DNA of 64,000 bases from Malania oleifera (lineage: Eukaryota > Streptophyta > Magnoliopsida > Santalales > Ximeniaceae): NCBI RefSeq assembly GCF_029873635.1, contig NC_080420.1, forward strand, positions 28,635,032 through 28,699,031, given 5' to 3'. Below are positions 8,418 through 60,400 of the stretch, one piece after another. The notes beneath the pieces were generated by a model, which did no database searches, was not told where the DNA came from, and saw only the letters and a list, made by a program, of their open reading frames with translations. Each line of letters begins with the position of its first letter. The first letter of the stretch is position 1. Made by a program: the position numbers and the translations under genes.

Positions 8418-8555
8418 GCAGGAAAACCGTCGACAATTTTTCTAGACTTGACAAAACCGTCGACGATTTGGCCCTTAAACAACTTTTGGTAGTTTACCTA
8501 CAGGAAAACCATCAATGGTTTTTCTAATCATGAAACCGGTGACGGTTTGGTCCTG
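8418..8555 (-). promoter_or_regulatory. GTCGAC palindrome cluster in LTR D
   Basis: AAACCGTCGACAATTT, AAACCGTCGACGATTT and two decayed relatives (ACCATCAATGGTTTTT, AAACCGGTGACGGTTT) occur within 140 bases. All derive from an AAACCGTCGACGGTTT-like palindrome. The cluster lies near the start of the minus-strand LTR, on the U3 side of the CT-rich leader. Confidence 0.6.
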
Positions 8556-8630
8556 GCCAAACCAATTTCCTCTTTTTCCTTTTCCTTTTCTTTTATTTAT
8601 TTCTTTATTTTCTTGGATCGGGTTACTACA

Positions 8631-9079
8631 GAAGTGTTAACTAAATTTCATTATATTCATTTAACTTTAAATTGTTTTATAGTACTGTACTTTATATATT
8701 ATCTCTATGTCCATTTACATGACCAAATATAGCATAACATGGCAAACCTTGATTTCACCCCTTGCCACTTTGTTCATTTTCCAAGCCCTAAAATGAAATG
8801 AGAAGTTAAGTTCCAATTCTTCAAGTGGAATTTTGGGGTTTTGGAGTGATTAAGGGTATAAATTGTAATTGATTTTTTCTTAGCCACTTAATAGTGAATT
8901 AGTCATTGGTACGCACTATATGTGTTGTGATTTGACAGTTTGTGATCAAGTTGGGTGTTTGATATTTAAATAGGAGTATATTGAAATTTGTGCTATGAGG
9001 ATGGTTAGTTAATTTCAAAGTTATGTAAAATGATCGGTTAGCAAATTTCGAGGACGAAATTTTTATAAGGAAGGGAGAA
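8631..9079 (+). mobile_element. 3' end of a Ty3/gypsy element with polypurine tract
   Basis: Noncoding AT-rich remnant. TTTCGAGGACGAAATTTT at about 9046-9063, followed by AAGGAAGGGAGAA at 9068-9079, is the typical end of plant gypsy elements: a conserved GAGGACGAAATTT block and then the PPT directly before the 3' LTR. The same block ends G1 at about 26872. No coding domain survives. Confidence 0.6.
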
Positions 9080-9253
9080 TATAGTAACCCCAAAATAAAT
9101 TATGAATCAATTAATTATTTAAATATTATTAAATTAAAGTAATTAAATAGATGATATGATGGATATATATATATTGAATCTTCCTTAGGAAGATTCAATT
9201 TAATCTTTCAAATTGAAAGATTGAAACCTTCCCAAAATAGAAGCTCTACTCCG

Positions 9254-9294
9254 TCTCTCTCTCTCTCTCTCTCTCTCTCGCTCGCTCGCTCGCT
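9254..9294. repeat. (CT)n-(CTCG)n microsatellite
   Basis: A CT run of about 25 bases passes into several CTCG units, inside LTR E. Confidence 0.9.
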
Positions 9295-9710
9295 AGCTCT
9301 CTTCTCTATTTCCTCGGCCAAATGTGCGCCGATCGAAGAACGAAAAATACCTTTAGGTTCCAAATTCGACCACCAACATTTTAACCGGATTGGATTTGCA
9401 ATTAAGGCATCGTAGGCACCACTCCTAGGCTAAGGTAAACTCTTTCTCTCTCTCACTCACTCAATTTCTCTCAAATCTTCAGCCAAATTGACGATCAGAC
9501 ACCATCACAGGGTCCTAACTTCAATCCTCGTCATTTTAATTGGAGCAGATTCATGGTTTAGGGATCATAGGAACAACCCCTAAGGAAAGGTAAAGGGAAT
9601 AAATTATGTCAGGAATTTTTATAAATTAATCGATTAAATTGTGATAAGAGATTACAAAAATTATATACACGTTTTTTTTTAATATTCTGGTATATGGAAT
9701 AGGATTTTGG

Positions 9711-9786
<76 letters not shown>

Positions 9787-9787
9787 G
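9711..9787. repeat. (ATT)n microsatellite, about 25 copies
   Basis: Nearly perfect ATT trinucleotide run inside LTR E. Confidence 0.95.
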
Positions 9788-10237
9788 TTAATTAAATTGG
9801 TTTTTATGAGTCTAGGGATTTTATAATAATTGTTATTTTAAAATTGAACTAATTGAATTAAAGTATTTGATTTCTAGATTATTGAAGTAGATTTTATGAA
9901 TGATTTGACCAATTAAAATTGTTGGTTTGATTTATTATACGTATTTTGTAAAGAATTAAAGTGAGTAGGGTTGATTATCTTCGTTTTCTTTTAAATACAT
10001 ATTTTGAGTTAAATAAACTGTGGAGATGATTAAACATGTATTTTCGATAAAACAAATATTGGGTATAAAAGGCCGGTTTTCCAGTAATTTATATAATTAT
10101 GAGAAACACTCAAATTGTGTGGCATGAGAAAGAATATTATTGTTTAATTAAAGTTATGAGTTTATTGTAGAGACCCGAAGGATTATTGCAAATAAATAAT
10201 AAAAGGAAGGAGAGAAGGAAATTTCAAAGGGGGGACT

Positions 10238-10425
10238 CAGCAAGTTCTCGTTGATGAGCGCAGAGCTTTCGTCAACGAGCAGTCTTCTTGGGCACGTCGA
10301 CAGGAACATGTGTCTCATCGACGATAACTTACCGAGAGGGCTGATTTTAGGGTCTGAGATTTGTCAACGAGAGTTATGTGTTCTTCAACGAACTTCCTTC
10401 TTGGTCTCGTCGACAAGGCCACATG
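10238..10425 (+). promoter_or_regulatory. GTCGAC/TCGT-TGACGA palindrome cluster in LTR C
   Basis: The cluster includes TCTCGTTGATGAG, TTTCGTCAACGAG, CACGTCGACAGG, CTCATCGACGAT, TTGTCAACGAG, TTCAACGAA and CTCGTCGACAAGG. All are variants of a TCGTCGACGA-type palindrome. The last unit ends about 20 bases before the TATA box. Confidence 0.65.
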
Positions 10426-10435
10426 GCCAGCCATC

Positions 10436-10444
10436 TATATATAG
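10436..10444 (+). promoter_or_regulatory. TATA box of LTR C
   Basis: TATATATAG follows the palindrome cluster and precedes a CT-rich leader, the usual arrangement in a plant LTR promoter. Confidence 0.65.
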
Positions 10445-11429
10445 CCAAAAATTCACTTTTCAGCGAAAAAATTGTCTTCTTCCCCTTTCTCTCATTAGAA
10501 TTCAGTGCTCTCTCCTTCTCTCTAGATTTTCGACTCCATTTCTCCATGGTTCGACGATCAGAAGCTACCATGATGATCCTGGGGTGATTCTCTACAACCT
10601 AACCAGAGCAAAATGTTGATTTGAGAAGTGTGGGAACCATCCCAATTTCAAGGTAAGTAGATTATTTTGGTATTTCCAGTATTACCAGGTTTATCTGAGT
10701 CTAGATTTTGTGTTGTATGCGAATATACTAGTGATTTGTGGAGTAAAATTAGGGTTTTATGATTTCAGGGTTAGGGTGTTTTCGGGACCCTGCAGGCATG
10801 GAGTAAGGACCTCGGCGGTTATTTTTTTGAGGAACCCAGGTAAATTATAGTTTAGGAAATTACGAATAAGCAGATTCTGGAAATGCGAGTATGATGATTT
10901 TCTAGGACATTCAGTGTTATACTGGGGAATTTGTATATATGTAATTACAAGATTTTGAGGTTGGAATGCCGAGGGCGTGAGGGTTGAATTGGAGGCAAGC
11001 CTCTCAGTCAAATAAGTAAGGGAAATATGTTATGCCAGGAATTTTGGAATGTTTATCATTAAATTATATGTTTGTCTAGATTATTATCCAGTACACAAAT
11101 TATTTGTATATTAGAAGATACAATTTTTAGAATATGAAATATTTATTTATTTAGTTGTGTGGCATGATACATTATTGGATCAGTATAGAAATCCTACAGT
11201 TTTCATATTATTATGATTTACAGTATTTATGCAAAAATATGTTTTATCAAATTTTACAGAATTATGAATTACAATGTATACAGACATATATTTTATAGCA
11301 TTTACAGATTACCATGTTTCTTAGAATTTTAAAGTCACAACACTATGATATTACAGTTGTTGTAAGAACCTGACCCAAGAATTTTAGATTGAATAAATGA
11401 GAAAGGGTAAAAAGGTAAATTTTGCAGGC

Positions 11430-11625
11430 TTCATTGACAAAGCCATTGTTCTCGTCGATGAAGGCCCTCGTACTGTTCGGCGATGAAATTCAGAGCCTCA
11501 TCGACTAAGAGATACCGAGCATGTTGTAAAACATCAGAATAGCGTTCATCGCCGAAGGAGCCGGTTCGTCGACGAAATGTGTGGATGATTCGTTGACGAA
11601 GGCATCATCTCATCGATGAATTGGA
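11430..11625 (+). promoter_or_regulatory. TCGTCGACGA palindrome array in G1 5' LTR
   Basis: A perfect 12-base palindrome TTCGTCGACGAA at 11565-11576 is flanked by decayed copies (CTCGTCGATGAAGG, GCCTCATCGAC, TTCATCGCCGAAGG, TTCGTTGACGAAGG, CTCATCGATGAATT). Most differences are single C/T or G/A changes at the CG steps. The array ends shortly before TAGAAATAGGATAT, a weak TATA-like region. Confidence 0.7.
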
Positions 11626-12356
11626 CTAGGTCAAGGGTCTAGAAATAGGATATTTTTTTGCTTCATTGCTAAGAAACCTCAAATCCTCTCTCTGTCTCTC
11701 TGTCTCTCTCTCTCTCTCTCTGTCTCTCTGTCTCTCTCTCTCTCTCTTCGATTCTTCGTTGTTCATTGCCTGATTCGACGATTCGACATTACTACGTGGA
11801 TCGGGGGAGGAATCTCTACATTTTTAGTGGATCGGAAAGTCGTTTCGAGGATTTTTGGGTTTTGACCCAAAATTGAGGTAAGGGTCTAATTTCAATTTCA
11901 TTTCGGAATATATGTAATAGTAAGAATTATAGTGAAGTTAGTTCTTGGATGTTTAGGTTTTGGGAACTCGGTTCGTAGTTTTGGAGCCATAAGGTTCGTA
12001 TTTTGGTATTCGGGAAAAGGTCAGGGGATTCTGTTTATATTAATTATTTTTGAAATCGGGATCGATAAACCTGTAGTTTACGATCGTATATATGTTTTGG
12101 CTACTTATTTGGAAAAATCTATCGGGTGAAAATGTGGGATTTTTGGCTTAAAATTTTTGGTAAAATTTGGGGGTTTCGGTATCATCTCTTTTTTGTTGGA
12201 GAAATCTTATGTTGTATTAAAATTGTAGTATTAAGACAATCGTACCCATACTTGTATTAAACTATATTCTTAAACTGAAAACGATAGGATTTGTTGTATA
12301 CCAAATAAGTGTGGAATGAATTGTTGTATGTAAAATGTTCTAGGTTTTATAAAATA

Positions 12357-12500
12357 GTTAGGGGTTGCTAATTACCGTACGCTGATGAGTATAGGGACAT
12401 GAGTTTCAAATTGTTCTAAGTTTTGTAAATCAGCTAGGGGCGTCTAATTACCATATGCCGAATCAACTAGGGGCGGCTAATTACCGTATGCTGATGTCAT
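12357..12500 (+). repeat. Short direct repeats in G1 5' LTR
   Basis: A unit of the form TAGGGG-GGCTAATTACCGTA-GCTGA occurs three times, irregularly spaced and diverged. The right LTR has the same three copies at about 27868-28005, so the repeats predate insertion. Confidence 0.7.
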
Positions 12501-13255
12501 GTCTTAGCCAATTATCGTGGGCGAGAGTGTCCGACTCTATATCTGAGCGTGTGAAATATCGCCTGTTCTTTCCGATTGGTCACCGATGGGTGTGAGTTGA
12601 CACCGTATTGGTAATGTTATCGCTGGGAGGCTTTGGTTATTGTAGGGTAATTGGGTGTTTAGTGTGACGACACTAACCGTATTTTTGGGTATCGTATGTA
12701 TTGGAACTGGATTGTGAAAAATACTAGAACTGTATTGAACTGTATTGTATTGTATTGTATTATGTTATGTTTTACGCTGAAATAACACTCATATGCCATA
12801 CACTGATATAACATGTTTTCTTCCTTATTGAGAGGTGTCTCACCCTGAATTTACAAATATTTTTTAGGTCCTTCGAGTAGCCGTAACTGGCATCCTAGCG
12901 TTCGGAAGCGTGGGTGTCGGTTAGCTATGTAGAGTACTTCAGTAAGTATGGATTTTGTAACTAGGTTGTCATTAGTGGGTTTGTAGACACTTCGGGGTAT
13001 GTATTGTATTTTGGGAATGCATATTCTAGTTATGTATAGACTCTAGTATGGTATGATGTATGTAAAGAAAGAACATTTTCGATGCGTATTTGATGACTAT
13101 GGATATGTATATGAATGTGTATAAGGTGTACGTGTACCCCACGGGGTCGAATCCTCATTCAACATAGTATCATGTATGTTTTAATTGATATAGAGATAGA
13201 TTAGGTTACTAAATTCACACCTAGAACCCATCCGCGGGTACGGGGCGTGACAGCT

Positions 13256-13579: not shown

Positions 13580-14570
13580 ATGGAACCCAAGGATAACAAC
13601 TTGGATAGTGGTTTCAAGAGGATTGCAAGTGATGAGTCTCCTTCCGTGCCTCGAGGTTTGACGAGGCAAGTTATGGGGAGATCAAACGTAGTGTTAGGAG
13701 ACTTGAGAGCTCTCCTACTAACATGGGTTGTACCATAGAGAGATTCACCCATATGCACTCTCCGATGTTTATGGGAGGACCCGATCTGATAGTAGTAGAG
13801 AACTGGGTGCAGAAGATTGAGAAGATATTGGAAGTTAGGCACTGCACCGACCAGCAGAAGGTTCTCTATTCTACTTTTCAGCTGGTAGAAGAAGCTGAAA
13901 GATGGTGGATGGTTGTGATTCTTCTTGAGAAGCAGAGAGCTAGTCCATTTGGTATGACTTGGAGTCGTTTCAAGGAGGTATTTTTCGAGAGATACTTCCC
14001 GACTTCTACTCGTGACGTGAAAGCTGATGAGTTCTCGAGCCTGACTGAGGGAACCCTGATGGTGCAGAGATATGTTGCCAGATGTATTGAGTTATCTCAT
14101 TTCGAGCCGTACTTGGTCTCGAACAAATATAAGAAGGCTTAGAGGTTTGAGAAAGGTTTAAGGAAGGACATCCGTAGGCTTGTGGGGATGCTACAGATTC
14201 GAGAGTTTTCTGTCCTGGTGGATAAAACCACCATAGTTGAGGCTTACCTCTAGGGGGATGAGGTGATATAGGAATAGAGGAAGAGGCCAGTATCTTTTGA
14301 TTCTTAGACTGGTCCTCAACAGGGACAATGGAAGAAGAAGAAGAACTATAGTTCGGGTTATCTCCAGAATATCGAGGGCAGAGTTCTCAGGGGAATCCGT
14401 CCTCCGCACCATGCACCAAGTGTCGTAAATGGCACGACGGTGAATGTCAGCCGTTCTGGGGTAACTACTACAACTGTGGGAAACCGAGCAACATATTTTG
14501 AAACTATCAGGCACAGAGGAGCGATATGCCTACATAGAGTCAGAACCGTGGGAGTAATCAGATACCTTGG
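13580..14570 (+). pseudogene. gag: G1 gag (broken)
   Basis: Begins MEPKDNNLDSGF at 13580, matching G2 gag (MEPKDNDLGSGS). A frameshift near 13675-13720 moves reading to the frame MGCTIERFTHMHSP at 13723. Several in-frame stops follow after 14140. The retrotransposon gag core motifs H-C-T-D-Q-Q-K and R-F-K-E-V-F-F-E-R-Y-F-P are visible. Near 14412 there is C-T-K-C-R-K-W-H-D-G-E-C. The following zinc knuckle (Y-Y-N-C-G-K-P-S-N) has lost its first Cys and its His. It would have made the capsid that packages the element RNA. Confidence 0.85.
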
Positions 14571-14603
14571 GGGAACTATCAGCCAAACACGACTCTGGCA
14601 ATT

Positions 14604-15083
14604 GTGTACTCTCTTACTCTAGCAGATGCGAAACACACTGGGAACGTGGTGATAGGTACCATTTTATTGCTTTCGAATAGAGCTGTTGTTTTATTTGATT
14701 CGGGAGCAACCCATTCATTTATATGTGCTAGTTTTGTGAAACGGTGTGAGGTTAAAACCCAAGTGATGGATGAGTGGTTGTCTGTAGCTACACCGATTAG
14801 GAGGGTAACAATTTGTAGTAAGATGTTAGGAAACTGCCCAGTGGTTATTCAGGAAAGACTGCTACTAGGGAACCTAGTAGTGTAAGACATGTATGGATTT
14901 AACGTCATACTGGGGATGGATTGTCTATTCTCTAACAATGCAGTGATTGACTATCGTAGGAAGGTAGTAGTGTTCAGACCTCCTGGGGAGCAGGAGTATG
15001 AGTTCGTAGGAACGTGTGTGCATTCGACGCCACAAATTCTATCAGCTATACAGGTAAGAAGATTACTTTTGGACGATTGTTAG
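14604..15083 (+). pseudogene. G1 aspartic protease
   Basis: The active-site motif V-L-F-D-S-G-A-T-H-S-F is intact around 14690-14725, followed by the downstream I-L-G-M-D block near 14908-14922. A stop codon at 14883-14885 cuts the domain between them. In the family this domain releases gag and pol proteins. It continues directly toward RT. Confidence 0.85.
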
Positions 15084-15122
15084 GGGTACTTAGCTTTCGT
15101 AAAGGAACCACCTTGGGATGAT

Positions 15123-16043
15123 ATGAAACTTGAAGATATCCGAGTGGTTAACGAATTTCTGGATGTATTCTCCGAAGACTTACCCGGTTTACCTCCTGAT
15201 TGGGAGGTGGAGTTCACTATTGATCTGCTGTCAAGCAAGGCGCTGATTTCTAAAGCTTTATATAGGATGGTTCCAGCTAAACTAAGGGAGTTAAAGGAGC
15301 AATTGCAGGAACTACTGGATAAGGGCTTTATCAAACCTAGTGTTTCGCCATGGGGAGCTTTAATATTGTTCGTAAAGAAGAAGAAGGATGGGTCGATGCG
15401 AATGTGCATTGATTACCGTGAGATCAACAAGGTAATAGTGAAGAACAGATACTCGTTGCCTCGTATAGATGATCTATTTGACCAGCTGCAAGGAACGCAT
15501 GTCTTTTTAAAGATCAATCTACGGCCAGGGTATCATCTGGTGAAAGTTAGGACTGAGGATGTTGCGAAGACTGCTTTCCGAACCAGATACCGTCACTACA
15601 AGTTTCTGGTCATACCTTTTGGGTTGACTAAAGCTCTGGCAGTATTTATGAACCTAATAAACAGGGTTTTCCATGAAGACGATATTCTGGTATATTCTAA
15701 GAGTTTGGAAAAGCACGGAAACCATCTGAAGTTGGTACTTCAAGTTCTACGGGAAAAGAAACTATATGTTAAACTGAAGAAATGCGAGTTCTGGCTGAAT
15801 CAGGTTATGTTTCTAGGTCATTTCGTGTCGAAGGGTGGTATCTCAGTTAATCCTGGTAAGATAGAAGCAGTGGTTGACTGGATAAAACCGAAGAGCGTAC
15901 AGGATGTTCAAAGTTTCCTAGGACTATTTGGGTATTACTGGCGGTTCGTGGAGGGATTCTCTAAGTTATCTGGCCCTCTGACACAGTTGACAAGGAAGGG
16001 TGTAAGATTTGAATGGACCGATGAGTGCGATCAGAGTTTCTAG
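15123..16043 (+). pseudogene. pol: G1 reverse transcriptase
   Basis: A 306-codon frame covers most of an RT domain: P-P-D-W-E-V-E-F, then [23 protein letters not shown], and F-R-T-R-Y-x-H-Y-x-F. Two active-site faults are visible. The first catalytic Asp (normally K-I-D-L-R-S-G-Y) is Asn in [10 protein letters not shown]. About 10 residues just before the Asp pair are missing: the sequence goes [12 protein letters not shown], where G2 has a longer stretch ending F-V-V-V-F-I-D-D. It is inactive by inspection. A stop at 16041 separates it from RNase H. Confidence 0.9.
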
Positions 16044-16046
16044 GAG

Positions 16047-16500
16047 TTGAAACACCAACTAGTCACTACTCCGGTTTTAACCACCCCATCTGGGGACGGT
16101 GGTTTTGTGATTTACAGCGACGCATCGCTGAAGGGGTTAGGATGCGTGTTGATGCAACAGGGGAAAGTAATTGCTTCTACTTCTGGGCAACTCAAGGAGT
16201 ACGAGAAGAATTACCCTACGCACGATCTGGAGTTGGCGGTAGTATTATATGCGTTGAAGATTTGGAGACACTACTTGTATGGTGAACAGTGTGAGATCTT
16301 CACGGATCACAAGAGCCTCAAGAACTTTTTCACACAAAAGGAGTTGGATATGAGGTAGAGGAGGTGGGTGGAACTAATCAAGGACTACGATTGCACTATT
16401 AGCTAACACCCGGGAAAAGCTAATGTGGTAGCTGATCCGTTGAATCAGAAGTCAGAGCACGCGTTGGTATTTGCAGTAGTAAGTCAGCATCACATCAAAA
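16047..16500 (+). pseudogene. G1 RNase H
   Basis: [16 protein letters not shown] carries the first catalytic Asp, and H-D-L-E-L-A-V-V the conserved Glu. F-T-D-H-K-S-L-K is the next conserved block. Stops at about 16356 and 16404 interrupt it. Its role in the family is to remove template RNA during cDNA synthesis. Confidence 0.85.
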
Positions 16501-16562
16501 GGGATCTGGAAAGTCTTGGTGTGGAGTTAGAGGATGGTAATCATTAGGCTTTCATTGTTATC

Positions 16563-17205
16563 TTGGTGATCCAGCCGACATTATTTGAGAGGATTAAACC
16601 CGCGCAAGCTAATGATGCGGAGTTAGTCGAGGTTGTAGAGAAAGTGCAGCAAGGGTTGGTTATAGATTTTAACATCTCCGAGGGAGGTGTATTGCAGTTT
16701 GGAAATAGACTATGTGTCCTAAATGACGAGGGGATAAAGAGGACGATCCTGGAGGAAGCGCATCGTTCTTTGTATACGATACATTCGAGTAGTATGAAGA
16801 TGTATCGGGATTTGTGCGAATCTTTCTAGTGGAGTGGCATGAAACGAGAGATTGCCCAGTTCGTGGAGCACTTTTTGACGTGTCAACAGGTAAAGGCTGA
16901 ACATCAAAGGTTGGCAGGGCCGTTGCAGCCATTGAGTATTCCATAGTGGAAATGGGAGCACATCTCCATGGACTTTGTCACCGAGTTACCACCAGTAGCA
17001 CTACGTGGGCATAACGCCATCTGGGTAATTGTGGATAGGTTGACAAAATCTACTCACTTTATACCGATGAAGATTAGCTACTCTTTGAGTAGACTAGCAG
17101 ATTTGTACGTGCAGGAGATAGTTAGAATGCATGGGGTACTGGTATCTATTATTTTAAATCGAGACGTGAGGTTTACTTCTCGATTCTGGAAGAGCTTACA
17201 GGAGG
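16563..17205 (+). pseudogene. G1 integrase, N-terminal and core part (cut by G2)
   Basis: The zinc-binding region reads E-E-A-H-R-S-L-Y-T-I-H and, after a stop, H-F-L-T-C-Q-Q-V-K; the first Cys of the usual C-L-T-C is gone. The core has M-D-F-V-T-E-L-P and D-R-L-T-K-S-T-H-F. The second acidic residue (S-D-R-D in G2) is Asn here (L-N-R-D-V-R-F). The frame stops at L-Q-E, where G2 entered; the remainder is at 25797-26588. Confidence 0.88.
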
Positions 17206-18988
17206 TGTCTAACCTATCCTTGTATCCAATAAAACATCCACAGATACAGTACCAAGGATGAGGGTCCCGTGGGATTCCCAGGCACCCTAACACATCCAAA
17301 CACAATCATATACACAGCGGAAAAAGGTCATTATATATATTCATATGCAGTACCATACCAGAGTCTATATAAGAGTAGAAACAGGCTCTATCAAAACGTA
17401 CAAACGGGTGCCCAAATACATCTCAAAATGGCAACCCACCAAAATAAAGTCCTAGCACTTATCCAAGCGCTAACAGCAGTACACCGGCCACTACGCTCCC
17501 TACACCAGGATGCTAATTCCAGTTACTTGAAGGACCTGTAAAAATGTACGTATAGCAGGGGTGAGACACCTCTTAGTAAGGAAGAACACAGGTTATATCG
17601 GTGTGTGGCATTTGAGTGTTATCATGATGCAACATACACGCAGTTAAATGTATTCCAGTAATAGTTTTACACAGTGCATACACGTACACATACACATAAT
17701 CAGCAATCCTGGTGTTGTCACACCCTTCGGCCCGAAGCCGGCCCGCGACATACGGCGTTGGCCCGCAGCCAACCCGCAAACACGGCGCCACTGGCACATG
17801 GCTAGTCCCTGACTCCCATGGCATCGTACCGGCGCTAACTGGTGGATCCACACCCTTCGGCATGATCTGCCAGTATAGGCTCACGCTATCGGATATAGAG
17901 TCGGACACTCTTGCCTACATGGTAGGTGATAAACACACGCCCTCAGACATAGAGCCAGACACTCTCAGTACCTAGAATAATTCGGAACCCCGTTCCTACT
18001 AGCATTTCAACAGTCACACACACATGCATGCTCATATAACCAAACAAACCACACCCATTTGGTAATCTAAATCATGGTTTTCCAAACAAATACAGTTTAA
18101 ACAAGTCAAGGAACAACCATCCCAATAACATAGTATAAATCAACATATACGTTCGGTTTTCAACAAAACTAGGGATGCAGCCCGTCGCCCCCTTTTTTCC
18201 CAAAACTGTAATAATGAAAAACCCATAGTTTTTCCCATTAGATCCCCTCCAAATGAGTAGCCAAAACACATACAGGACCGTGAACCACAGTTCCACCTAG
18301 TCCAATTACAAAAATAACCAATATAAACACAGTTCCCCTTACCTTTTCCCTGAATAGCAAATCCTGAACGCCAAGGCCCCTAAACAGCGAACCAAGTTCC
18401 AAAACCTACAATTAATAGTATAGAATATACTCATAACACTTTTCCCTACCAAACTACCAGATCAGAATTGAAAACCGAGCCTTACCTCGATTTTTCACCG
18501 AACCCAAAATCTCCAAAACAAGATTCTAATCCGTAGAACTTGTAGAGAATCCTTCCACGATCCTTGTGGTAACTTTAGATTCACGATTCTAATGACGAAC
18601 GGTGAAGGAATCTAGAGAGAGAAAGTGAATCCCAAGTTCCTAGAGCGAGAGAGAGAGAGAGAGAAACCATTACTTCACTACTAAGCAACTCAAAATATCC
18701 TTTTAAAGAGCCTTTGACCCGGGTGGATTCGTCAACGAATTGGCGTCTTCGTCGACGAGTCCGCCATTAGCTTCATCGATGAGACGGTGGCCTCGTTGAC
18801 GAGCCGAATATTTCTAATTTCCCCGAACCTCTCGACATTCTCTCGTCAACGACCCTCTGAATTTCGTTGACAAGAAGGACGAAGACTTTGTCGATGAAAT
18901 TTGGCTTCCTCGACGAGGCATGCTCTTTTACCAAAATGCCCCTCTCTTTAAATATTTAAAACCACTTATCACGGTTCGAGTGCTTACA
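17206..18988 (-). repeat. G2 3' LTR
   Basis: Matches 23985-25796 throughout, but 43 bases next to its outer end are missing. It begins TGTCTAACC, where the other LTR has TATCACGCCCGAACCCC before its TCTAATC. The target duplication is intact, so the loss is internal and probably followed insertion. It contains the TAAGAGGTGTCTCACC-type block at about 17561-17580, a GC-rich CCCTTCGGCCCGAAGCC patch and palindromes at 18725-18920. Confidence 0.92.
18725..18920 (-). promoter_or_regulatory. TCGTCGACGA palindrome array in G2 3' LTR
   Basis: Units such as TTCGTCAACGAATT, TTCGTCGACGAGTC, TTCATCGATGAGAC, CTCGTTGACGAGCC, CTCGTCAACGACCC and CCTCGACGAGGC occur about every 20-35 bases. The matching array in the other LTR is at 25550-25735. 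Confidence 0.7.
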
Positions 18989-46949: not shown

Positions 46950-49900
46950 TTCTCCCTCTTTTTTGATGATGACAAATACGATTGGCAAAAATATAGAGTT
47001 AAGCCTAAGAAGGCTCCCCCTCACAATATGCATCCAATTTATTTTTAAACAAAAGTCCTACCCATTATTTTTGCCTCTTTCCATCTCCCCCTTTTGACAA
47101 CAGTAAAGAGGGTCATTTGAATTAAAATCCTAGGCAATGGATAAGTATTACAGTTATACAAGAAGAATTTTGGAAAGATTTTTAAAAATTTCGGCAGAGT
47201 GTCGTTTGTAAATTAAACTTTACAAAATAAAACCTGTATAAGTGTAACCTGTTTGAGTTTATATTTCCTAACAATTTATCCACAACTACTCAAACAGTTC
47301 AGTATGGTCCAACAAGTAAATAAAACTATCAAGATGATCACGAAGTGGCCAAGTTGGGCATTACAAATGATAATCATTATTCATTACATTCAATACGATC
47401 ATGTAATAGATATATATTTGACATGTGCACACAATCAATAATCAACTTTCACAAAGGCTAAAGCAAGAATACAAGTCAACAATAATATTAGTTGCTAAGT
47501 CTTAGAAAGTTCTCATTTGAGTGCTCCCCCTAAAATTATGCAATTTATGAAACATCTAAGAAGCATCTCTACTGTGCATTAGACCTATTAGCTACTTATA
47601 TTGATGTTAATTATGAGAGTTCATTAGGTTTTTAACACAGTATAAGTAATGGAACAAATGAGACTCACAAAGTAAAACCAGTTAATAGCATGAGTCCAAT
47701 GAGCTAGGTGAGTTATAATTCTCTTCTCAAGGATGGGGCATAAACTCCTCGATATAGTCTCAGGCATACATAAGTGTGTTTATGCTCAAGAATGAATTTC
47801 ATTTAAGTACATCCATCATATGTTCATTCTTCTTAGTATTACTTAGCATGCAAGAGATTTTAGGCATAAAGTTCTTACTGATTTATTCTAAGATTGGGAC
47901 TTAAATTCCCATGTATTTTTGCATGCACACTTACTTGAATTAAGCTGAGGGATGATGTTCTCTTAAGTGCATTTCTTATATACTCATTCTATCAAATAAA
48001 TTCAGCATGCAACAAATATTAATCATTCAGCGCATATGCATGACATATTGCATTTCATTTTAAAAACATGATAGTCAATTAAGACTATACTCAAAGTTAT
48101 GCAATTTTGAAATGGATGTATGTATATAATAATAATGAGGTAAGTGGAAAAAGAGTTTGTCTTGAAATTTGATCTTGCCAAAAGTTAATGTAGATAAATA
48201 TATATATGTGTATATAATTATAATATACATCCCTTTTTTAATGTTTGCAAAATGGTGTTGGGGGTGCTTGCAGAAACAGAAACTTTAATTTAAAAACTCA
48301 TGCAAGCGAGCAACAAATTTTTTGGTATGTCAATAAAGCACATACTAAAAATAACCAGAAAACCAAAACCATAATGATCCTAAAAGTTCAACAATCACAT
48401 GCAAGATCATATGGCAAATACAAACAGTTGTGGCAATATAAACATGCTTCAGATTATGATTTTCAATAAAATCTTTTCATTCAAGTACATGCCACAATGA
48501 ATTCATTCAAGATCTAAGCTAAACATATGGGTAAGCAAAACAAGGTAGTAATTTAATTCTAGATGCTCCCCCTATCAATTTGAATATATGCTTAGATTCT
48601 TTAACTACTGATACTATCCAAAGATTAATTTCATTATGCTTAATAGTATAAGCCATCAATCCAAATCTTTAAAATCAACTATACTGAGTATTTGTCAATT
48701 ACATGTTATCATTTGATTAGTATAGTTGTCCCTATAGACCATGGATGCATCAGAAGATATATATTAAGGCATGCAATAATGTTCATGACCCAAGAACATT
48801 TCATATCAAAACATAAGCCTTTAAGCACTAGATATAATGTTTTAGGTATTCTCAAGAGTCTCGATATTCAATAAATGAAAGTGATGCATATGGATCATTT
48901 ATGCACTTCCTATAAGGATGGATCTGAGCCTTTCTAAACAATTGATGATTATGCTAGGATGAAGATTAATTATCTATTTAAGTTTTCACTTATCCTTTTC
49001 AAAAATATTTTAAAGTTAATTTCATCATAATCATCTTTAACACAAGGTTTTGGTTTGGGAAAAGTCCTGTTGAAATTTCGACAGCATGTAGTCTATAAAT
49101 TGGATATTTACCAAATTTTCATGCACCAAAACCTGATAGATTTAAGCAATCAATTCAAAATAGTATTTTAATCATGCGAGAACCTATAATCCACTACCAG
49201 CATGCAATTCTCATCAACTGCATCCACAATGCAGGAGGCTTTCAACACAGGCATGCAATCTAGTAGTATAATCAACAGATGATACAAAAGATAAACTATC
49301 CATTATAAGATATACTCATTTAACACATAATGAATAGTAGGAATTCAGTACTTTTCATATGAAGGCATATGGCCATGAAAGACAAAAATTCATGAGAGCA
49401 TTTAATGTATATATATTCATGAAGAGTAATGTTCCCCCTGAGTTATGCACTTATTCAAGGACCAAACAGTCACAATAGATATTTCTTTAAGTGAGCTAAG
49501 TCAGTATTGCCTCTATTGATATGAATTTCGATATGTGTGAGAGGCACGAATTAGAATAACTTTCAATTTAAAAGTACACATGCATAGGTCTACTTGAATT
49601 TTATGCATTCATCTAGATTGAGACCTAGGCAATCAAGTTAGTCATTCAACTCATCTCTAAGTATATAAAGCTCTAAAAGATATGACTTAATAATTTGAGA
49701 GCTTGTGAAGTGAAAATGAGTAAATACTCTTGACAATCAAATTATCATTTAGTTTAGAAGAGTATTTAGAATGAGTGGACATTTTCAAAAATATTTTTGT
49801 GCTTGGTAATCATGTCCATGCTTGGGCAAAGAGCATATAGGATATGTGAATGTTGTGAACAATACTCTTCAAAGAATGGAAAGTATCCTATAAATATAAT

Positions 49901-53366: not shown

Positions 53367-55625
53367 TGTTAGAATTGGTGTATTCTCAAGAGGGGGGGTG
53401 AATTGGAATTTTAAACTTTTCTCCTAGGTTGAACTGGATGTTAGTAGAATATCACAACCTAGGGTCTTTCTATGTAGTTCTAAATACCCCAATAAATATA
53501 ATATACGAAAATTTAAATCAAATGCATCATTAATATAATAACATACATGTGCGGTAAATATAAAGTGCGAAAATATAAACCAACACACGATATGTTATCA
53601 GGGTTCAGCCAACTGTGCCTACGTCCCCTCCTCTAGCTTGCAAGCCCGAGGATTCCACTAATAGCTCACTTAAGGGTGGAGCGGCACCGATTATAACCAG
53701 GTCAATTAGCACAGGGCTGACCTCAACCTTAACCAAGTTAATTAGCGGGGCTGACCTCAACCTACACGCCTTAACAGGATGATGCACCTAACTTTCCTAA
53801 CTGGGTCTAAGCCAATTCGGGACTATTCCAAAGCTAGACTCTCTCTTCAGGTCCGTGCCTAGAAATACAACAGATGTGAATTACAATCAAATGGTACAGT
53901 GATTGTGCTTTCTTGTAAAGCAGATATGTACCCAAATACGCGCAATTATGTACACCACAATATAATTTAATATGTAAGCTCAATGTGCTCCAATATTTTA
54001 ACTCTTCGATATATATATTTACTATCAGTGTAATGAGTATGTGAGAGTATCAATCAAGCAATCTTTGTATCATAAGATATTCAGCCAATAAGTTCACACA
54101 AAGATGTCAAGTCTCAAGTATTTCAATCAGCAGGATGTCTCAAGCATGTAAATATCAAATGATGTATATGCTTGGTTTGCAAAAGATGTGTAATCTCTGT
54201 ATTCAGAAAATAAAATATGAGTGAATAAATATTGTAACAAAGAGCACTATCACATAAACAAATATCTTCTCATAGTTATATCAAAATAAAGACCACAAGA
54301 TATTTGAAAATGTTTTGAAGAGATTTTGCAATCCACAAACAAATACGAACTTCTCAAGATATTGCAATGGATATGCAACACTCAGAAGTTTAATACAAGT
54401 CTTCTTTGGTGAGACTTATTAACAAAGTCCCCTAAGAATACTTAGGTTTAGCTCTCAAGAAAATTATATCAAGCAACTCGAGCAAGGAGAGCAAACCTTT
54501 ATGCACAACCACACTTAAACACACTTACAAAGATATTTTAGAAGTAAGATCTGGTAAGAATAAGTGTTGGAGGCTCAAAGATGAGTATTATGGGTTTTGA
54601 GATTTTCAGAGAATTTTTCCCTAATCAAATATGCTAATCTCTTACTAATTTTCACAAATGATCTCATATATATAGACATGGGAAGAGATATGACCGTTAG
54701 GGACCTATTGGGCATTATTAGGGAAGTTTAATGACATTTCAAATATTTTAACCCTGCTTAAAAAATGTTTAACTGCAGTAAAAATCAAGGCAACCCGAGA
54801 GGTCTGGTCGACCACGACTCATATGGTTCGGTCGACTAGGGCATTTTTTAACTGAATGGTCGGTCGATCGAAAGTGTCTTTTCAAAGGAAATTTTTCATT
54901 TTTACCGAGGTTCAGTCGATCGGGCCATTTTGAACTGGCTGGTTCGATCGACTAGATCGTTGGGATTTTTCCCGAGGACCCTCAGTCGACCAGGTAGTTG
55001 GAGTTCATTTTTTGTCTCGATCGACTAGATGGTCAAATTGTTGACCTAAGGGGTTTCGGTCTACCGGGGCTTTTTGGACTGCAATGGTTCGATCAATAGG
55101 GACCTTGGTCAACTATTGACCTAGACCTATTTCGGTCGACCAGAGCAAAATGAACTACCTTGGCCGGTCGACCGAAAGTGCACAATGTGTGCATTTCGGT
55201 CCTATTATGCATCACACAAACCCTAATCAAGTGTCTATCAAACATAGGTGCAAATGTGTGTGTCTTAGGGTCACTTGGGGTCTAATTTAAAGACATAGAA
55301 AAAGTCCAGTGTCAGTCGACTGGAAGGGAAAACCCTAAGGTCTTTCTAAGGTCATTTTTCATTTACGGTTTGTTTGAGCTTACGTATTATCATGCATGTG
55401 GTGTGTGTGAGCTTATTACAAACCAAAGACATATTTACTATTACAGACCAATTTCCCTACTGAGTATATAGATTACAACTGAAAAATATGAATTGGTTTT
55501 CAAGCCTTAAGCTTTCACGTGCCATCAATGTATCTGCTAATATAGACCTGCACATGAACTAGATATTCATTAAATACATGAATATTTGTTATTATTAAAA
55601 TCGGGCATGACCTATAAGGTCAACA
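53367..55625 (-). repeat. Sirevirus A 5' LTR
   Basis: 2,259 bases, closely matching 44671-46949 along the whole length. The palindrome array is at 54795-55320. The minus-strand TATATATA lies near 54668. Confidence 0.93.
54795..55320 (-). promoter_or_regulatory. GGTCGACC array in Sirevirus A 5' LTR
   Basis: Exact and decayed copies (TTCGGTCGACTAGG, TTCAGTCGATCGGG, TTCGATCGACTAG, TTTCGGTCGACCAG, CCGGTCGACCGAAAG). Comparison with 46105-46500 shows that different CG steps decayed in the two LTRs after insertion. Confidence 0.75.
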
Positions 55626-56747
55626 CGAACTAAACATTCAGTATGAAGAATAGCATCTCCCTAATCAGATAAAGGCAATTTAGTTCTCATAATCATGAGT
55701 CTAGCAATGAGTTGAAGTTTCTTAATAAAAGATTCAGTTAAACCATTTTGTGTATGGAAATGAGCAACGAGATGTTCAACTTCTATTCCAAATGACATGC
55801 AATAGTTATCAAAAGTTTGGGATGTAAATTCACCAGCTTATCCAAACCAATTGATTTAATTGGATAATCGGGAAAATGAGCTCGTAATCTAATTAGTTGA
55901 GAAAAAAGTCTAGCAAATGCAATATTACGAATAGAAAGTAGAGAAACATGTGACCATCTAGTAGATGCATCAATTAAGAGCATAAAGTATCTAAATGGTC
56001 CAGATGGTGAATGTATTGGTCCACATATATCACCATGAATTCTTTGTAAGAAACTGGGTAATTCAAGACTTACTTTTGAAACAAATGGTTTCAAAAGAAC
56101 CTTCTACTTCTTTAGTGGATGACCATGTGAATTCTCAATGATTCTACACATCATTACATCCCCAGGATGTCCAAGACGATCATGCCAAAGTGTAAATAAC
56201 TTTGGGTCATTGCACTTCTGGTGCAAGACATTATATGATTCAACTGGTTTAATCTTTGTATAATACAATTTAGAAGATAAAGTTGGCAGCTTTTCTAAAA
56301 TTTGTTTCGTCCTAAAAACAATAGAAGTAATATAAAAGAATTCTTTACTACCTTCATTTGTAGTTTCAATGTGATATCTTAAGTCTTAAATCTTTAAAGC
56401 TTAACATATTTTTTTTGGATCTGCTAGAATATAAAGCTTCATCAATTTGTAATAAAGTACCATTGGGTAACTTTATATTAGTTCTTTCGAAACCTTTAAT
56501 TAAATTTATAGAACAAGATATTGTATTAACATTTGTTAAATATATATTCAAGTAATGGAAATATTTCCTATCTCAAAGAATTATGTGTGTTGTAGCACTG
56601 TCAGCTAAACAAATTTCTTCGAAAGACATCTTAGAATCGATCAAAGCTTTAAGACAATTCACACTACAACAAATATTTTAAAAACTCATTACTATAATTG
56701 AAAATAGTAGCAATTTATCCAAATACAATATTACTTACTATATATCC
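55626..56747 (-). pseudogene. pol: Copia element F: protease, pre-integrase and integrase core
   Basis: On the minus strand, C-L-A-D-S-A-T-T-H (about 56590-56620) is the protease active site. I-K-L-P-N-G-T-L-L and L-W-H-D-R-L-G-H-P-G-D-V (about 56155-56200) are the pre-integrase zinc region. L-Q-R-I-H-G-D-I-C-G-P-I-H and L-L-I-D-A-S-T-R-W-S-H-V are the integrase core. A frameshift near 55840 spoils the second acidic block. The stretch ends V-R at 55626, where Sirevirus A is inserted. Confidence 0.88.
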
Positions 56748-57760
56748 TAAAATATTACATCATTATTTTCATTTGAATTTACAAGAAAATCAACAACATC
56801 AAGATAAATAGAATTGGATGGTCCAACATCTATTGGAACAACATTTTTAGCAAAATTTGTTTCAACCTCTTTAGTTTTTTCTTTTATAGATGCTTGGTAT
56901 AGATCTACCAAGTGCCAAAGCGTACGACAGGTACGCGACCAATGACTTTTTCCTCCGCATCTATAACATTCAATTTCATGTTGTATAGGTCGCTGATTTT
57001 GATCATTTACCCACTTCTGGGGGCCATCCCTCTTCTGGGGGTTATCCCTCTTCTGGGGAATTGCAGCCTCACATTAATGTTAGTGATTATTTCAACAACG
57101 GTCACAACCATGCCCACGACCATGCCTACGGTCTCGTCCTCGACCACGAGATGTATTCATATTCACTTCAGGGAATGGGATCGAACCAGTTGGATGAGTT
57201 TGGTGATTTTTCATCAAAGGCTCATTATTTTGCTCAGTGACAAGAAGACATAATATAAGTTCAAAAAATTTAATAAATTTTCTCTCCCTATATTACTGCT
57301 GCAGGAGCACATTAGTGGGATGGAAAGTAGAAAAAGTTTTTTCTAACATGTCTTCATCAGTAATATTTTCACCACATAATTTTAGCTTCGAGCTAATCTT
57401 ATATAGGGTTGAGTTATATTCACCAACTGTTTTAAAATCCTGCAACCTTAGGTGCAACCATTCATATCGAGTTTTTGGTAAAATTACATTTTTCTAGTGG
57501 TCAAATCTATCCTTTAAATTTTTGCATAGGACAAGTAGGTCTTTAACACTGAGGTATTCGGTCTTTAATTCTTCATCTAAATGATGACGGAGGAAGATCA
57601 TAGCTTTTGCGCGATCCTGCAGGGATGTAGTATTTCAATCTAAAATAGTATGTCCCAAGTTCATCACATTTAGATGAATATCAACATCAAGAATCCATGA
57701 TAAATAATTGTTGCCTTTGATATCAAAGGGTATAGATTCAACTTTGTTTAGGTTCGACAT
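56748..57760 (-). pseudogene. gag: Copia element F gag
   Basis: ATG at 57760 opens MSNLNKVESIPFDIKGNNYL, then S-W-I-L-D-V-D-I-H-L. K-A-M-I-F-L-R-H-H-L and F-K-T-V-G-E-Y-N-S follow, the latter typical of copia gag. R-G-R-G-R-D-R-R-H-G-R-G-H is an Arg/Gly basic stretch. C-Y-R-C-G-G-K-S-H-W-S-R-T-C is an intact zinc knuckle at about 56922-56963. At least five stops interrupt it. A short coding repeat (P-Q-K-R-D, about 57015-57055) precedes the knuckle. Confidence 0.88.
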
Positions 57761-58258
57761 CTGAATAAATTAACAATAATAAAATAATTTAGAAAATAGA
57801 ATGTAAAAAACTGAAATAAAACTAAGATAATAATATAATAGTATTTCCACCCTTCTGGGGTACTTAAATATGTTCCTTCTGGAACATTATCTTATTTTTC
57901 TCAATTTGTATTCTTCATGAGTATGATTCCAATTTACAATATTAAATTGAGTAACTATTTAACACTTCTTTCGGAGGTTGAATATACTATTTTATATGGA
58001 GAACAAATGTTTCACTTCTTCAAGAGGTCGAATTTAACATCTCTTCGGGAGGGTAAAAATATAGACGGGAAATTTAAATATATTGCCTCTTCAAGAGGAC
58101 TATTTCTTCAAGAGATTTAAATATGTAAATGAAAATTTTAAATATATTGCCTTTTCAGGAGGATTTTTCTTCCGGAGATATATATACAGAAGATTTTAAA
58201 TGTATATAGCCTCATTTGAAGGACTATTATACCATCTCTTCTGGAGATTGGTAGTTTA
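57761..58258 (-). repeat. Leader of element F with short palindrome array
   Basis: Noncoding. About ten imperfect palindromes of the CCTCTTCAAGAGG / GTTCCTTCTGGAAC / CTTCCGGAG type lie between 57849 and 58248, roughly 30-50 bases apart, joined by AT-rich spacers (AAATTTAAATATATTG). No PBS was recognised. A3 cuts the stretch at 58259, so the 5' LTR of F is not visible here. Confidence 0.65.
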
Positions 58259-60400
58259 TGTTGGAATTGGTGTGATCCCAAGAGAAGAGTGAATTGGGTT
58301 TAAAACATTTTTTGCTAATTTAAACAATTACACTGATTCACCACAGTTCATATCCTATTCAATATTGAAAACGTGTACGTACAACAATTAAGTTATTAGT
58401 GTGTGCATACATACACGTGTGTTGTATATCACATTTAAATTAATTATGTGTGCATGCAAGATGGTTATAAAAAGACATGAACAAGCATACACATACTGAA
58501 ATTTAAGTGCAAGAATTTAAATAAGAAAGAGAGAGAATGACACACAAATTTGTTAACGAGGTTCCGCCAATACTGCATGCGTCCCTGCCTTGGGCATACC
58601 CCCCAAGGATTCCACTATACTTGCTCACTTAATCGGATTGAGCAGAAGCCTTTTACATCCTCTCCTTACGGGGCGAGGAAAACCTCAGCTCAATTACTAG
58701 GCTGAGCCGATCTAGCCTCACTTACGGGGCTGAGACTCCTTAGTTCTATTCCAAGCTGAACCGAATCGGTCTCACTTACGGGACTGAGACTCCCCAGTTC
58801 AATTCACAGGATGAACCCAACCGTTACAATAAAAATATTTTTGTATATATGAAAAAGCTTCTAAATACAAGCATTGATGTACACACTAAGCTCATAAAAA
58901 TACACACTCCAATGATATGAGATAATGCTCAGGGAGTAAGGGTGCTTAATTATATTTAAACCCTAATGAAAAGTTTTCTCCAAAAAGATATTTCAATAAT
59001 AATATAGGAAAACCTAGGGTTTTGCTCTTTCAATAATTTTTGTACAAATAGAATGTGTATGAAAAATAAGTATTATGTTCTCCAACAAAGATTTATGCAA
59101 ATGAGAAATACTCAGAGAATCTAGGAGTTAAGCCCAAGAAAATATTTGTGCACTAAATAAATTCTCCCAAAAATATTTATCATGAAAATAATCAAGAGAA
59201 ACCAAAGCTATACTCTCAAAAATATTTTCAAAAATAAAGCATAAGTGAGAGTATGCATATGAAAATAGATGCCTCAAAAATAAATATGCTCTCTTCAAGA
59301 GTGATTTTGAAATGAAAGAGTGGAAGAGAGTTTGAGAGTTTTGTATAAAAGTTTGAACCAAAAGAATGATTTAAACAATAAAAAGCATTTTAGGGGAACT
59401 TTGATTAACAATGGATTAGAAAGAAAATTTAGGTTAATCAAAGTTGCTAATCTAAGTTATGGAGGGGGTATTTATTGATTTTCAACAAATCTAACCGTTG
59501 AGGGAACGCTCGATATATTGAAAAAGTTTAATTAAATTTTAATGACGTTTTAGCACTTTTAAAAAATTCTAACCCGAGCGGTTCGGTCGACCGTGGAGCC
59601 AAGTTCGGTTGACCAGGAGAATTTTGAACTGAGAGTTCGGTCGATTAAACTTAGTGTCCCAAGGGTTTCCATTTCCGCGCAGTTCGATCAACCAGCTCAA
59701 TTTGAACTAAGTAGTTTGGTCAACAAAGCAGTTGGCAATCCCCACGTGTGGGTTTGGTTGACCAGGGCGTTGCCTGTATAAATTTGGTCGGTCGACCGGG
59801 AGGTAAACTTGTTGATCAAAGGAGGTTTGATTGACTAGGTCTACCTATATATATCTGGTCGGTCAGCGGAGAGGTCAACCTTTTGACCCGGTGGCAGTTC
59901 GGTCGACCGAACATGCCAATTTGGGCATTTTCGATCCTTTTTCTCTTATAAAATTTTTCCTATTCATTAAATGATTAATGTTAAGACTATAGGGGATTTT
60001 TTATGCAATATTTAGGGTCCTAAGGTTAGTCTAAGGCCTTTGAGAAATAACCCTAAAAGTCCAGTGTCGGTCGACCAGCCCTAAGGTCATTCTGTCCCTA
60101 TGATCATTTTACAGTTATCTGAGCATTTAAAACATATCATGCAAGATGTATGCATTATTATAAACCAAATATAAAAATAAATGCATATACAAGTAAACAC
60201 ACAGATGTCTTCTTCTTTCTTCTTTGCTCTTTAACTCTATGAAATATGCCAGATATGAGCTTTAAGTAGTGTCATGGCTTCCATGTCTTCTTGATCTTAT
60301 GTGTGACCTGAATTATACATGTTCGCGCACTTAAAAGCACATATAAGAACCGCTTGTGTTTGTTAACATCAAATTGGAGATCAGACTCAAAAAGCCAACA
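58259..60400 (-). repeat. Sirevirus A3 3' LTR
   Basis: 2,142 bases from TGTTGGAATTGGTG to AAAAAGCCAACA, closest to the solo LTR at 36252. The palindrome array is at 59580-59905, with one more unit near 60068. Confidence 0.9.
59580..59905 (-). promoter_or_regulatory. GGTCGACC array in A3 LTR
   Basis: TTCGGTCGACCGTGG, TTCGGTTGACCAGG, TTCGGTCGATTAA, GGTCGGTCGACCGGGAGG, TTCGGTCGACCGAAC and decayed relatives occur about every 30-60 bases. Confidence 0.75.

Follow-up and report, generated by a model that had tools for sequence, protein, structure and literature searches.

Short repeated sites that lie in U3, upstream of the TATA box, and bind host factors are a known feature of the Tnt1 and Tto1 enhancers. 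Closer to the subject of this work is the repeated motif (RM) of Sireviruses which, in the available excerpts of Bousios et al. 2010 (PMC2829016), is palindromic, occurs in many copies per LTR and is located upstream of TATA, within the LTR's upper half. These excerpts also give CGGTCGACCG as the RM of a Vitis Sirevirus, describe RMs as confined to Sireviruses and missing from the classic retrotransposons used for comparison (a Ty1/copia set), and report that no single binding factor common to the RMs was found. In maize Sireviruses, excerpts of two articles that refer to Bousios et al. 2016 (PMC5311732, PMC10760457) describe a palindromic cis-region, in which palindromes cluster within the regulatory part of the LTR and which is associated with small RNAs.

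The 64-kb window considered here, that is, the whole stretch of DNA analysed, contains 47 copies of GTCGAC, compared with a mean of 4.29 and a maximum of 10 in 100 dinucleotide shuffles. The initial annotation had proposed that GTCGAC palindromes are common to gypsy-type and Sirevirus LTRs, that they form arrays just upstream of TATA, and that a U3-specific excess in both superfamilies would support this notion. The distribution in the window bears it out: with U3 ends set at TATA-like sites, partly by eye and weakly for the LTRs denoted below as D and S2, 46 of the 47 copies fall in the U3 of 14 LTR copies (8,504 bp), upstream of TATA-like sites, while the rest of these LTRs (16,448 bp) holds a single copy and the non-LTR DNA of the window (39,048 bp) none.

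The gypsy-type LTRs are Tekay-like. LTR D (6900..8632, minus strand, inner end approximate) is solo or truncated; its U3 sites at 8429 and 8459 have one decayed arm of AAACCGTCGACGGTTT each, and a third GTCGAC follows downstream of U3, at 7394. Symmetric AAACC and GGTTT flanks had been attributed to D; in the window D holds no complete AAACCGTCGACGGTTT, but the full palindrome is real, with 2,219 copies in the genome against 1 for its control. LTR E (9082..10170, plus strand), which follows a PPT-like end at ~9045-9080, contains no GTCGAC, in agreement with its earlier description as lacking the array. LTR F (10173..11358, plus strand), a further gypsy-like LTR with an array that had not been clearly named before, has its sites at ~10247-10417 and its TATA at ~10435, and stops where element C starts, suggesting that C was inserted into it. 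The 5' LTR of C (11361..13252, plus strand) carries an octet of sites at ~11431-11620 with gaps of 21-25-21-48-20-24-20 bp, followed by CTAGAAATAG at the TATA position, whereas the 3' LTR (first part 26903..28347, plus strand; rest at 31045-31461) has its octet at ~26973-27162 and CTATAAATAG beyond it, at ~27182. Between them lie the remains of gag-pol (13636..17205, plus strand; with RVT_1 at 15084-16040), which element G interrupts, and the end of pol with a Tf2-1-like SH3 (25968-26585, plus strand). Element G is nested in the integrase of C and comprises a 3' LTR (17208..18988, minus strand) with an octet of the YTCGTCGACGAR type at ~18729-18916, a 5' LTR (23988..25797, minus strand) with an array including GTCGAC at 25578, 25602 and 25693, and RVT_1 at 21376-22158.

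RVT_1, which we take to be the Pfam profile for gypsy reverse transcriptases (RTs), is thus found in both C and G, and the SH3_Tf2-1 integrase end in C; the rve profile scored under the cut-off in G, and no chromodomain match appeared among the pieces of C and G searched. We assume the lineage name Tekay/Del for both elements. The octets of C, G and F do not conform to the Sirevirus RM, as their site is TCGTCGACGA, without CGG-CCG, and their host is not a Sirevirus, an assignment based on coding domains for C and G and on the LTR for F.

On the Sirevirus side, the solo LTR A (32636..35193, minus strand; target-site duplication AAGCC) lies inside an LTR of element B, and its array (33909..34390, minus strand), upstream of a TATATA at ~33772, is made up of CCTGGTCGACCGAAAC units with 14 exact GTCGAC as well as GTCAAC forms; 15 exact copies were counted for LTR A. 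Element B, with a copia-type gag (Retrotran_gag_2, 40809-41618), shows two TAGTCGACTGG-type sites in the right part of its 3' LTR (35194..36247, minus strand) and sites at 43236 and 43382 in that of its 5' LTR (42882..43904, minus strand); with two exact sites in each LTR part examined, LTR B falls short of the at least eight clustered copies of an RM, and it shows no significant GTCGAC array. LTR S3 (36252..38950, minus strand, outer end approximate) has two GTCGAC. Element S1 has 5 exact copies in its 3' LTR (44671..46950, minus strand), with a PPT-like AAAGAGGGAGAA just outside, and 6 in its 5' LTR (53368..55626, minus strand), adjoined by a primer-binding-like TGGTATCAGAGC; the two LTRs are 91% identical. 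The PPT- and primer-binding-like sequences, together with a copia-type gag at 52389-53174 (Retrotran_gag_2, 28.3 bits versus a cut-off of 27), identify S1 as a Sirevirus, while A, S2 and S3 were assigned by LTR similarity and ends only. LTR S2 (58259..60401, minus strand) has 4 exact copies, at 59586, 59791, 59902 and 60070. Including decayed forms, A, S1 and S2 carry 18, 14-15 and 11 sites, respectively, upstream of a TATA-like site, and their CGGTCGACCG units show the CGG-CCG palindrome with arms partly decayed or asymmetric. That Sirevirus palindromes were already known is confirmed by the identity of CGGTCGACCG with the Vitis RM, as given in the excerpts of PMC2829016. The symmetric flanks ascribed to the Sirevirus LTRs did not hold: only the GGTCGACC in the middle is palindromic, and what flanks it is asymmetric (CCTGGTCGACCGAAAC).

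When all palindromic 8- and 10-mers of each U3 were compared with 100 shuffles, TCGTCGACGA ranked first and above all shuffles at 10 bp in F, both LTRs of C and both LTRs of G; at 8 bp, CGTCGACG passed in F and in the G pair but failed in the 5' (P 0.16) and 3' (P 0.20) LTRs of C. In A and the S1 3' LTR, CGGTCGACCG and GGTCGACC were at the top and above all shuffles; the S1 5' LTR also exceeded all shuffles, with TCGATCGA and GTCGATCGAC leading and GGTCGACC and CGGTCGACCG second. In S2, GGTCGACC passed at 8 bp but not at 10 bp (0.07). Taken singly, D, S3 and the B 3' LTR were non-significant in this test, and the B 5' LTR passed solely through an A+T word.

The possibility that the pattern is limited to these few copies could be discarded. 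In the 1.49-Gb genome, TTCGTCGACGAA occurs 37,861 times, compared with 67 for its reversed form and 7 for TTCGACGTCGAA, a palindrome matched in composition and CpG; TCGGTCGACCGA occurs 17,197 times versus 47 for its control, and a further count gave 3,309 versus 488. Among palindromes of 6, 8, 10 and 12 bp in a motif-blind 200-kb sample, GTCGAC, CGTCGACG, TCGTCGACGA and CTCGTCGACGAG ranked directly after two (AT)n words. In motif-blind, PPT-anchored samples, which comprise the exact matches listed first for C1 and are not a random draw, the TCGTCGACGA grid was present in 13 of 20 Tekay-like U3s (exact GTCGAC in 12, no palindromes in 5) and exact GTCGAC in 5 of 16 Sirevirus U3s; the motif-selected loci L023-L026 and L047-L056 were left out of these frequencies. 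Many Sireviruses of this genome have other palindromes, or none detected. The Sireviruses of this host therefore do not carry GTCGAC as a general rule and, since many Sireviruses and a quarter of the Tekay-like U3s sampled do without it, the core is not needed for the success of an element.

The Tekay-like arrays are characterized by their rigidity. The octet of TCGTCGACGA sites follows a grid of ~21-25-21-(44..52)-21-25-21 bp, so that two quartets lie 44-52 bp apart and the 19-21 bp distances correspond to about two helical turns. Of 86 gaps in 13 arrays, 82 measured 19-21, 24-25 or 44-52 bp; likewise, the 97 intact pairs listed out of 25,387, each within the first 3 Mb of C1, were without exception at 19-21, 24-26 or 43-44 bp, though distances of 14-44 bp were allowed. 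Across 45 array pairs, non-CpG site positions were 96% identical, a figure inflated by the choice of sites at no more than three mismatches, and spacers 52% (42% when shuffled). Each TCGTCGACGA contains three CpGs, and 116 of 135 site mismatches were CpG transitions, such as might be expected of methylated silent copies. All 16 Tekay-like arrays examined against shuffled controls were positive, with a mean z of 1.82, whereas the six controls ranged from -0.58 to 0.61.

It had been proposed that the two superfamilies either converged on this module or exchanged it, and both parts of this alternative find a place. The Sireviruses of the window share with the Tekay-like LTRs only the GTCGAC core, on a different grid, and for them convergence or a chance choice of core is enough. 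An exchange, probably from the Tekay-like side, is supported for one amplified Sirevirus family outside the window, denoted L028-type, whose LTRs appear as mosaics of a Sirevirus 5' U3, a Tekay-homologous octet and, weakly, a Sirevirus TATA side. A first look gave 4,095 candidates, of which 40 were scored and ten further copies read. In all ten, the 5' U3 matched Sirevirus LTRs only; in nine, the array matched Tekay-like LTRs only (8-18 of 27, versus 0 of 23 Sirevirus LTRs); and the TATA side gave Sirevirus-only matches in seven and none in three, the best E value being a weak 3e-5. The Sirevirus PPT, or a close form, lay beside the LTR start in 6 of 12 upstream stretches, and the other six had different flanks, as for a 5' or solo LTR.

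Convergence alone, in which both superfamilies independently evolved sites for the same factor, the L028-type octet included, seems unlikely for this family. It would fit the core-only likeness in the window, and a further Sirevirus U3 (L068) has a related palindrome at a similar pitch of 21-22 bp with gaps of 50-51 bp. However, all seven gaps of the L028-type octet agree with those of element C within 1 bp, and in all six copies compared (those of the ten with all eight sites, set against 10 full-grid Tekay-like arrays of 32 listed, D and two Sirevirus rows being kept apart) its spacers match Tekay-like ones even without the palindromes, with ATACCGAGAG in the mid spacer of three. Among 500 shuffles, 0-3 attained the spacer score, and among 500 random Sirevirus segments, 0-2. 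In the case of L028 itself, 3 of 119 spacer re-orderings matched Tekay-like arrays no worse than the original order did, and its best single match was equalled by 6-9 of 1000 random sets. This argument is not absolute, because the spacers might themselves contain functional sites. A candidate intermediate, the junction of a Sirevirus array with a Tekay-like array at L047, was not counted as an amplified mosaic because the exact junction occurs once; seven further similar places differ from it at three bases on the Sirevirus side.

These observations could be integrated, with a probability that we put at roughly 0.6, by assuming that the arrays are promoter-proximal regulatory modules and that the octet was captured by one Sirevirus family. 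In this model, the CpG-centred, spaced palindromes just upstream of the TATA box would act as LTR control modules, most likely bound as DNA by a dyad-reading host factor (a homodimer or paired monomers), which would make them candidate sites for a dimeric factor, as initially suggested. The Tekay-like octet would be one inherited module, which one Sirevirus (copia) family captured, perhaps through template switching or through a nested insertion followed by deletion, before that family multiplied; the window Sireviruses carry the known RM with the same core on another grid, for which common use of the core, not copying, suffices. From the DNA alone we infer the binding of a factor, activation, a single factor family serving both superfamilies and the direction of capture.

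Two other roles are rather improbable as the main explanation. If the arrays acted as RNA, the U3 transcribed in the 3' LTR would form hairpins through pairing of its copies that feed or evade small-RNA silencing, DNA symmetry being incidental. Two arrays tested do fold beyond all shuffles (z -3.80, reached by 0 of 200; z -7.73, 0 of 100) and, in the excerpts of PMC5311732 and PMC10760457, palindrome-rich LTR regions of maize Sireviruses are small-RNA hotspots. However, any palindrome array folds strongly, the fixed 21/25-bp spacing and the position just upstream of TATA are left unexplained, and the rest of the LTR, also transcribed, is nearly devoid of sites. Alternatively, the CpG-centred palindromes could be methylation sensors, methylation shutting off the promoter or drawing methyl-readers, with mainly the symmetric CpG being relevant. 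The abundance of CpGs and of CpG transitions agrees with this, as does the finding, given in the excerpts of PMC2829016, that clusters of the RM border predicted CpG islands, but the scarcity of TTCGACGTCGAA, with the same three CpGs and composition, indicates that it is the sequence, and not the CpG count, that is kept; such a switch could coexist with the promoter-module reading. A neutral minisatellite, which slippage or unequal exchange would have built up from a short unit and which would have been inherited without function, is very improbable: units recur, and array A partly self-aligns at a 72-bp shift (34091-34207 to 34163-34278), but the spacers of gypsy arrays diverge between families while sites and distances are fixed.

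Other readings were rejected. Since the sites show conservation within LTRs, insertion-target palindromes, as described in excerpts of PMC6911290, were discarded. A search of viral contigs for related RTs and paired sites revealed no RT relative; paired sites were present in 22 contigs, all of which lacked a primer-binding-like site and 19 of which had a GC content of at least 0.58. For a CBF/DREB reading of the core, presumably RYCGAC, and for the presumed creation of W-boxes by deamination (GGTCGACC to GGTTGACC), nothing decisive emerged, and no factor is named here.

If the octet was captured by one Sirevirus family, such cassettes can move between superfamilies. We advance only tentatively, as somewhat doubtful in its entirety, the wider picture of U3 arrays as exchangeable control cassettes, in which a rigid gypsy octet became spliced into an LTR of copia type, where it spread, one host factor reads the 21/25-bp code, and methylation-driven decay scatters altered sites over the genome. 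So many copies could influence genes in their vicinity and titrate the factor that binds the sites, and the grid yields sharp predictions, for instance for a spacing altered by half a turn. Together with the gypsy-type arrays, the mosaic family, by carrying the array across the superfamily border, makes it possible to test which host protein reads the sites and whether retrotransposons trade promoters.

To our knowledge, the Tnt1 and Tto1 enhancers are neither made of GTCGAC palindromes nor arranged on an octet grid. The Sirevirus half of the pattern is known, whereas our literature searches found nothing in print on the gypsy-type arrays. The maize cis-region, as seen in the excerpts of PMC5311732 and PMC10760457, resembles the present arrays in its clusters within the LTR regulatory region, and differs in its palindrome (CACCGGACnnnGTCCGGTG) and in belonging to copia elements. 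The Vitis RM, as given in the excerpts of PMC2829016, recurs as CGGTCGACCG in A, S1 and S2; here, however, Tekay-like gypsy LTRs also have arrays, on a fixed grid and without CGG-CCG, so that palindromic arrays, hitherto reported as a Sirevirus feature, exist in a stricter version in gypsy-type elements, in tens of thousands of copies.

The window was found, by self-comparison and boundary reading, to consist mostly of nested and decayed LTR retrotransposons. On the forward strand lies the gypsy-type element C (LTRs at 11361-13252 and at 26903-28347 plus 31045-31461), into whose integrase a second gypsy-type element, G, is inserted on the reverse strand (LTRs at 17208-18988 and 23988-25797). 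D, E and F are further LTRs, and the Sirevirus-type LTRs, all on the reverse strand, comprise the S1 pair, the solo LTR A (target duplication AAGCC), the B pair, S2 and S3. A Pfam search (10 pieces submitted, from 125 of at least 75 aa; 7 matched) identified RVT_1 in both C and G. C also has a Tf2-1-like SH3 domain, and B and S1 have a copia-type gag. The gypsy-type elements probably belong to the Tekay lineage and are called "Tekay-like" here. The 3' LTR of C is split by an insertion that contains a minisatellite with a period of about 25-26 bp (29269-29654), and a stop-to-stop open frame of 177 codons lies beyond the mapped elements (5066-5596).

The initial annotation held that unlike LTR families share U3 arrays of palindromes centred on GTCGAC. 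The shared pattern proved to be real, since the window contains 47 GTCGAC against 4.29 expected, 46 of them in U3 and none outside LTRs, but the cases of B and D are weaker from the window alone. Palindrome tests of each LTR were positive for F, G, A and S1, for C at 10 bp though not at 8 bp, and in part for S2; they gave no support for D, B and S3 taken singly. Across the genome (1.494 Gb, window included), TTCGTCGACGAA occurs 37,861 times, versus 67 for its reversed form and 7 for a control palindrome of the same composition and with the same three CpGs; the counts for TCGGTCGACCGA, AAACCGTCGACGGTTT and TCAGTCGACTGA were 17,197 (control 47), 2,219 (control 1) and 3,309 (control 488). In 20 stretches of 10 kb sampled blindly to the motif, GTCGAC-centred words came directly behind two (AT)n words among the over-represented palindromes of 6, 8, 10 and 12 bp, and eight of the 20 stretches held nine clusters in all, each of at least three sites and including one or more exact GTCGAC.

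The Tekay-like array is made of eight sites in two quartets, each spaced at about 21-25-21 bp and separated by a gap of 44-52 bp. The 86 gaps in 13 sampled arrays included 45 of 19-21 bp, 25 of 24-25 bp, 12 of 44-52 bp and four others. Genome-wide, 25,387 intact site pairs lie 14-44 bp apart (control 0), and the 97 distinct pairs among the matches listed, which cover the first 3 Mb of contig C1, are spaced at 19-21, 24-26 or 43-44 bp. Non-CpG site positions were 96% identical, versus 52% for spacers and 42% for shuffled spacers (45 comparisons, 10 full arrays), although the choice of sites at no more than three mismatches biases this conservation toward the sites. CpG transitions account for 116 of the 135 mismatches in 99 sites and affect both arms, which makes it probable that the sites descend from a perfect palindrome and decay in the manner of methylated DNA.

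Sampling U3s beside polypurine-type ends regardless of motif (all on contig C1 and exact to the end pattern) made it possible to compare the superfamilies. Among the first 20 Tekay-like ends in the matches listed (9,443 in the genome), exact GTCGAC was present in 12 U3s and the TCGTCGACGA grid in 13, including one, L088, without an exact core; two (L077 and L084) carried a decayed D-type array, and the array was absent from five. Exact GTCGAC was present in five of the first 16 Sirevirus ends listed (20,035 in the genome). These counts indicate that the core is the rule for Tekay-like LTRs and, in Sireviruses, one choice among several. When compared with 12 shuffles each, the top Sirevirus palindromes stood above them as CAGTCGACTG and TCAGTnnACTGA in L068, CGGTCGACCG in L069, TCAGAnnTCTGA in L057, TCGGGnnCCCGA in L063 and A+T-rich words in L060 and L071, while in the remaining 10 of the 16 the top palindrome did not exceed them. 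As L057 and L063 carry other palindrome types, the sequence of the Sirevirus repeated motif appears to undergo turnover between related LTRs of Malania oleifera. L066 shares the palindrome word of the L057/L063 set, not above shuffles. The L068 array holds about 15 decayed CAGTCGACTG-type sites at a pitch of 21-22 bp, near the Tekay-like pitch despite differing flanks, with gaps of 50-51 bp. By eye, most of the 13 array-bearing Tekay-like LTRs show a (CT)n run after the TATA box (as at 27240-27256 in the window and in L073-L092), possibly an initiator or GAGA-factor region.

A single random stretch yielded a Sirevirus-type LTR, L028, bearing gypsy-type sites: its 5' U3 matches the Sirevirus LTR L057 (E 4.6e-49), and the matches of its array are Tekay-like U3s, among them the 5' U3 of element C (E 3.6e-8). 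The family is large, as the 40 scored matches of 4,095 first-look candidates were L028 itself and 39 copies at 93-96% identity. Ten further copies were read. Six show the complete octet, spaced at 21-25-20-47-20-25-20, and seven sites of this grid are present in L096; L095 and L101 seem to have lost sites through deletion, and in L099 an interruption follows the first site. When these copies were compared with 23 Sirevirus and 27 Tekay-like LTRs, the 5' U3 matched exclusively Sirevirus in all ten, the array exclusively Tekay-like in nine (L099 had no match), and the TATA side exclusively Sirevirus, weakly, in seven and neither group in three. Because palindromes alone could produce the Tekay-like matches, they were removed, and the palindrome-free spacers still matched Tekay-like spacers in six of six copies, with scores that shuffling reached in 0-3 of 500 trials and random Sirevirus stretches in 0-2 of 500. 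For L028, none of 1000 shuffles, 0-1 of 1000 random stretches and 3 of 119 re-orderings of its own spacers attained the mean spacer score, and 6-9 of 1000 random sets attained its best single spacer score. ATACCGAGAG, a word found in the Tekay-like L050, is also present in the mid spacer of three of the six copies. The simplest reading of these sequence matches would be that a Sirevirus LTR captured a Tekay-like octet in place of its own array and then multiplied, the direction being inferred from the wide distribution of the octet in Tekay-like LTRs. Elsewhere, near position 93,400 of contig C1, an S1-type Sirevirus LTR is fused, within its array and with no gap, to a Tekay-like U3 and array (L047), and this exact junction occurs once genome-wide.

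Their place, spacing and dyad symmetry favour the notion that a dimeric host factor would bind the palindromes as DNA and work on the promoter; 21 bp correspond to two helical turns, which would set paired sites on one face of the DNA. In the array of A (33909-34390) there are deaminated forms, GGTTGACC, which derive from the GGTCGACC of Sirevirus arrays and include the W-box core TTGACC. Strong RNA folding was also found in both arrays tested, and maize studies, in the portions considered here, connect palindromic Sirevirus regions with small RNAs (PMC5311732, PMC10760457); hence, the DNA and RNA levels may both matter.

No report of gypsy palindrome arrays or of a Tekay-Sirevirus swap was found in searches of the open-access literature, mostly at the level of titles and abstract openings, and the passages considered from PMC11963269 mention neither. 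In the corresponding portions of Bousios 2010 (PMC2829016), no common factor for the Sirevirus repeated motifs had been found, the motif of the Vitis Sirevirus is CGGTCGACCG, and palindromic repeated motifs upstream of the TATA box are reported as specific to Sireviruses.
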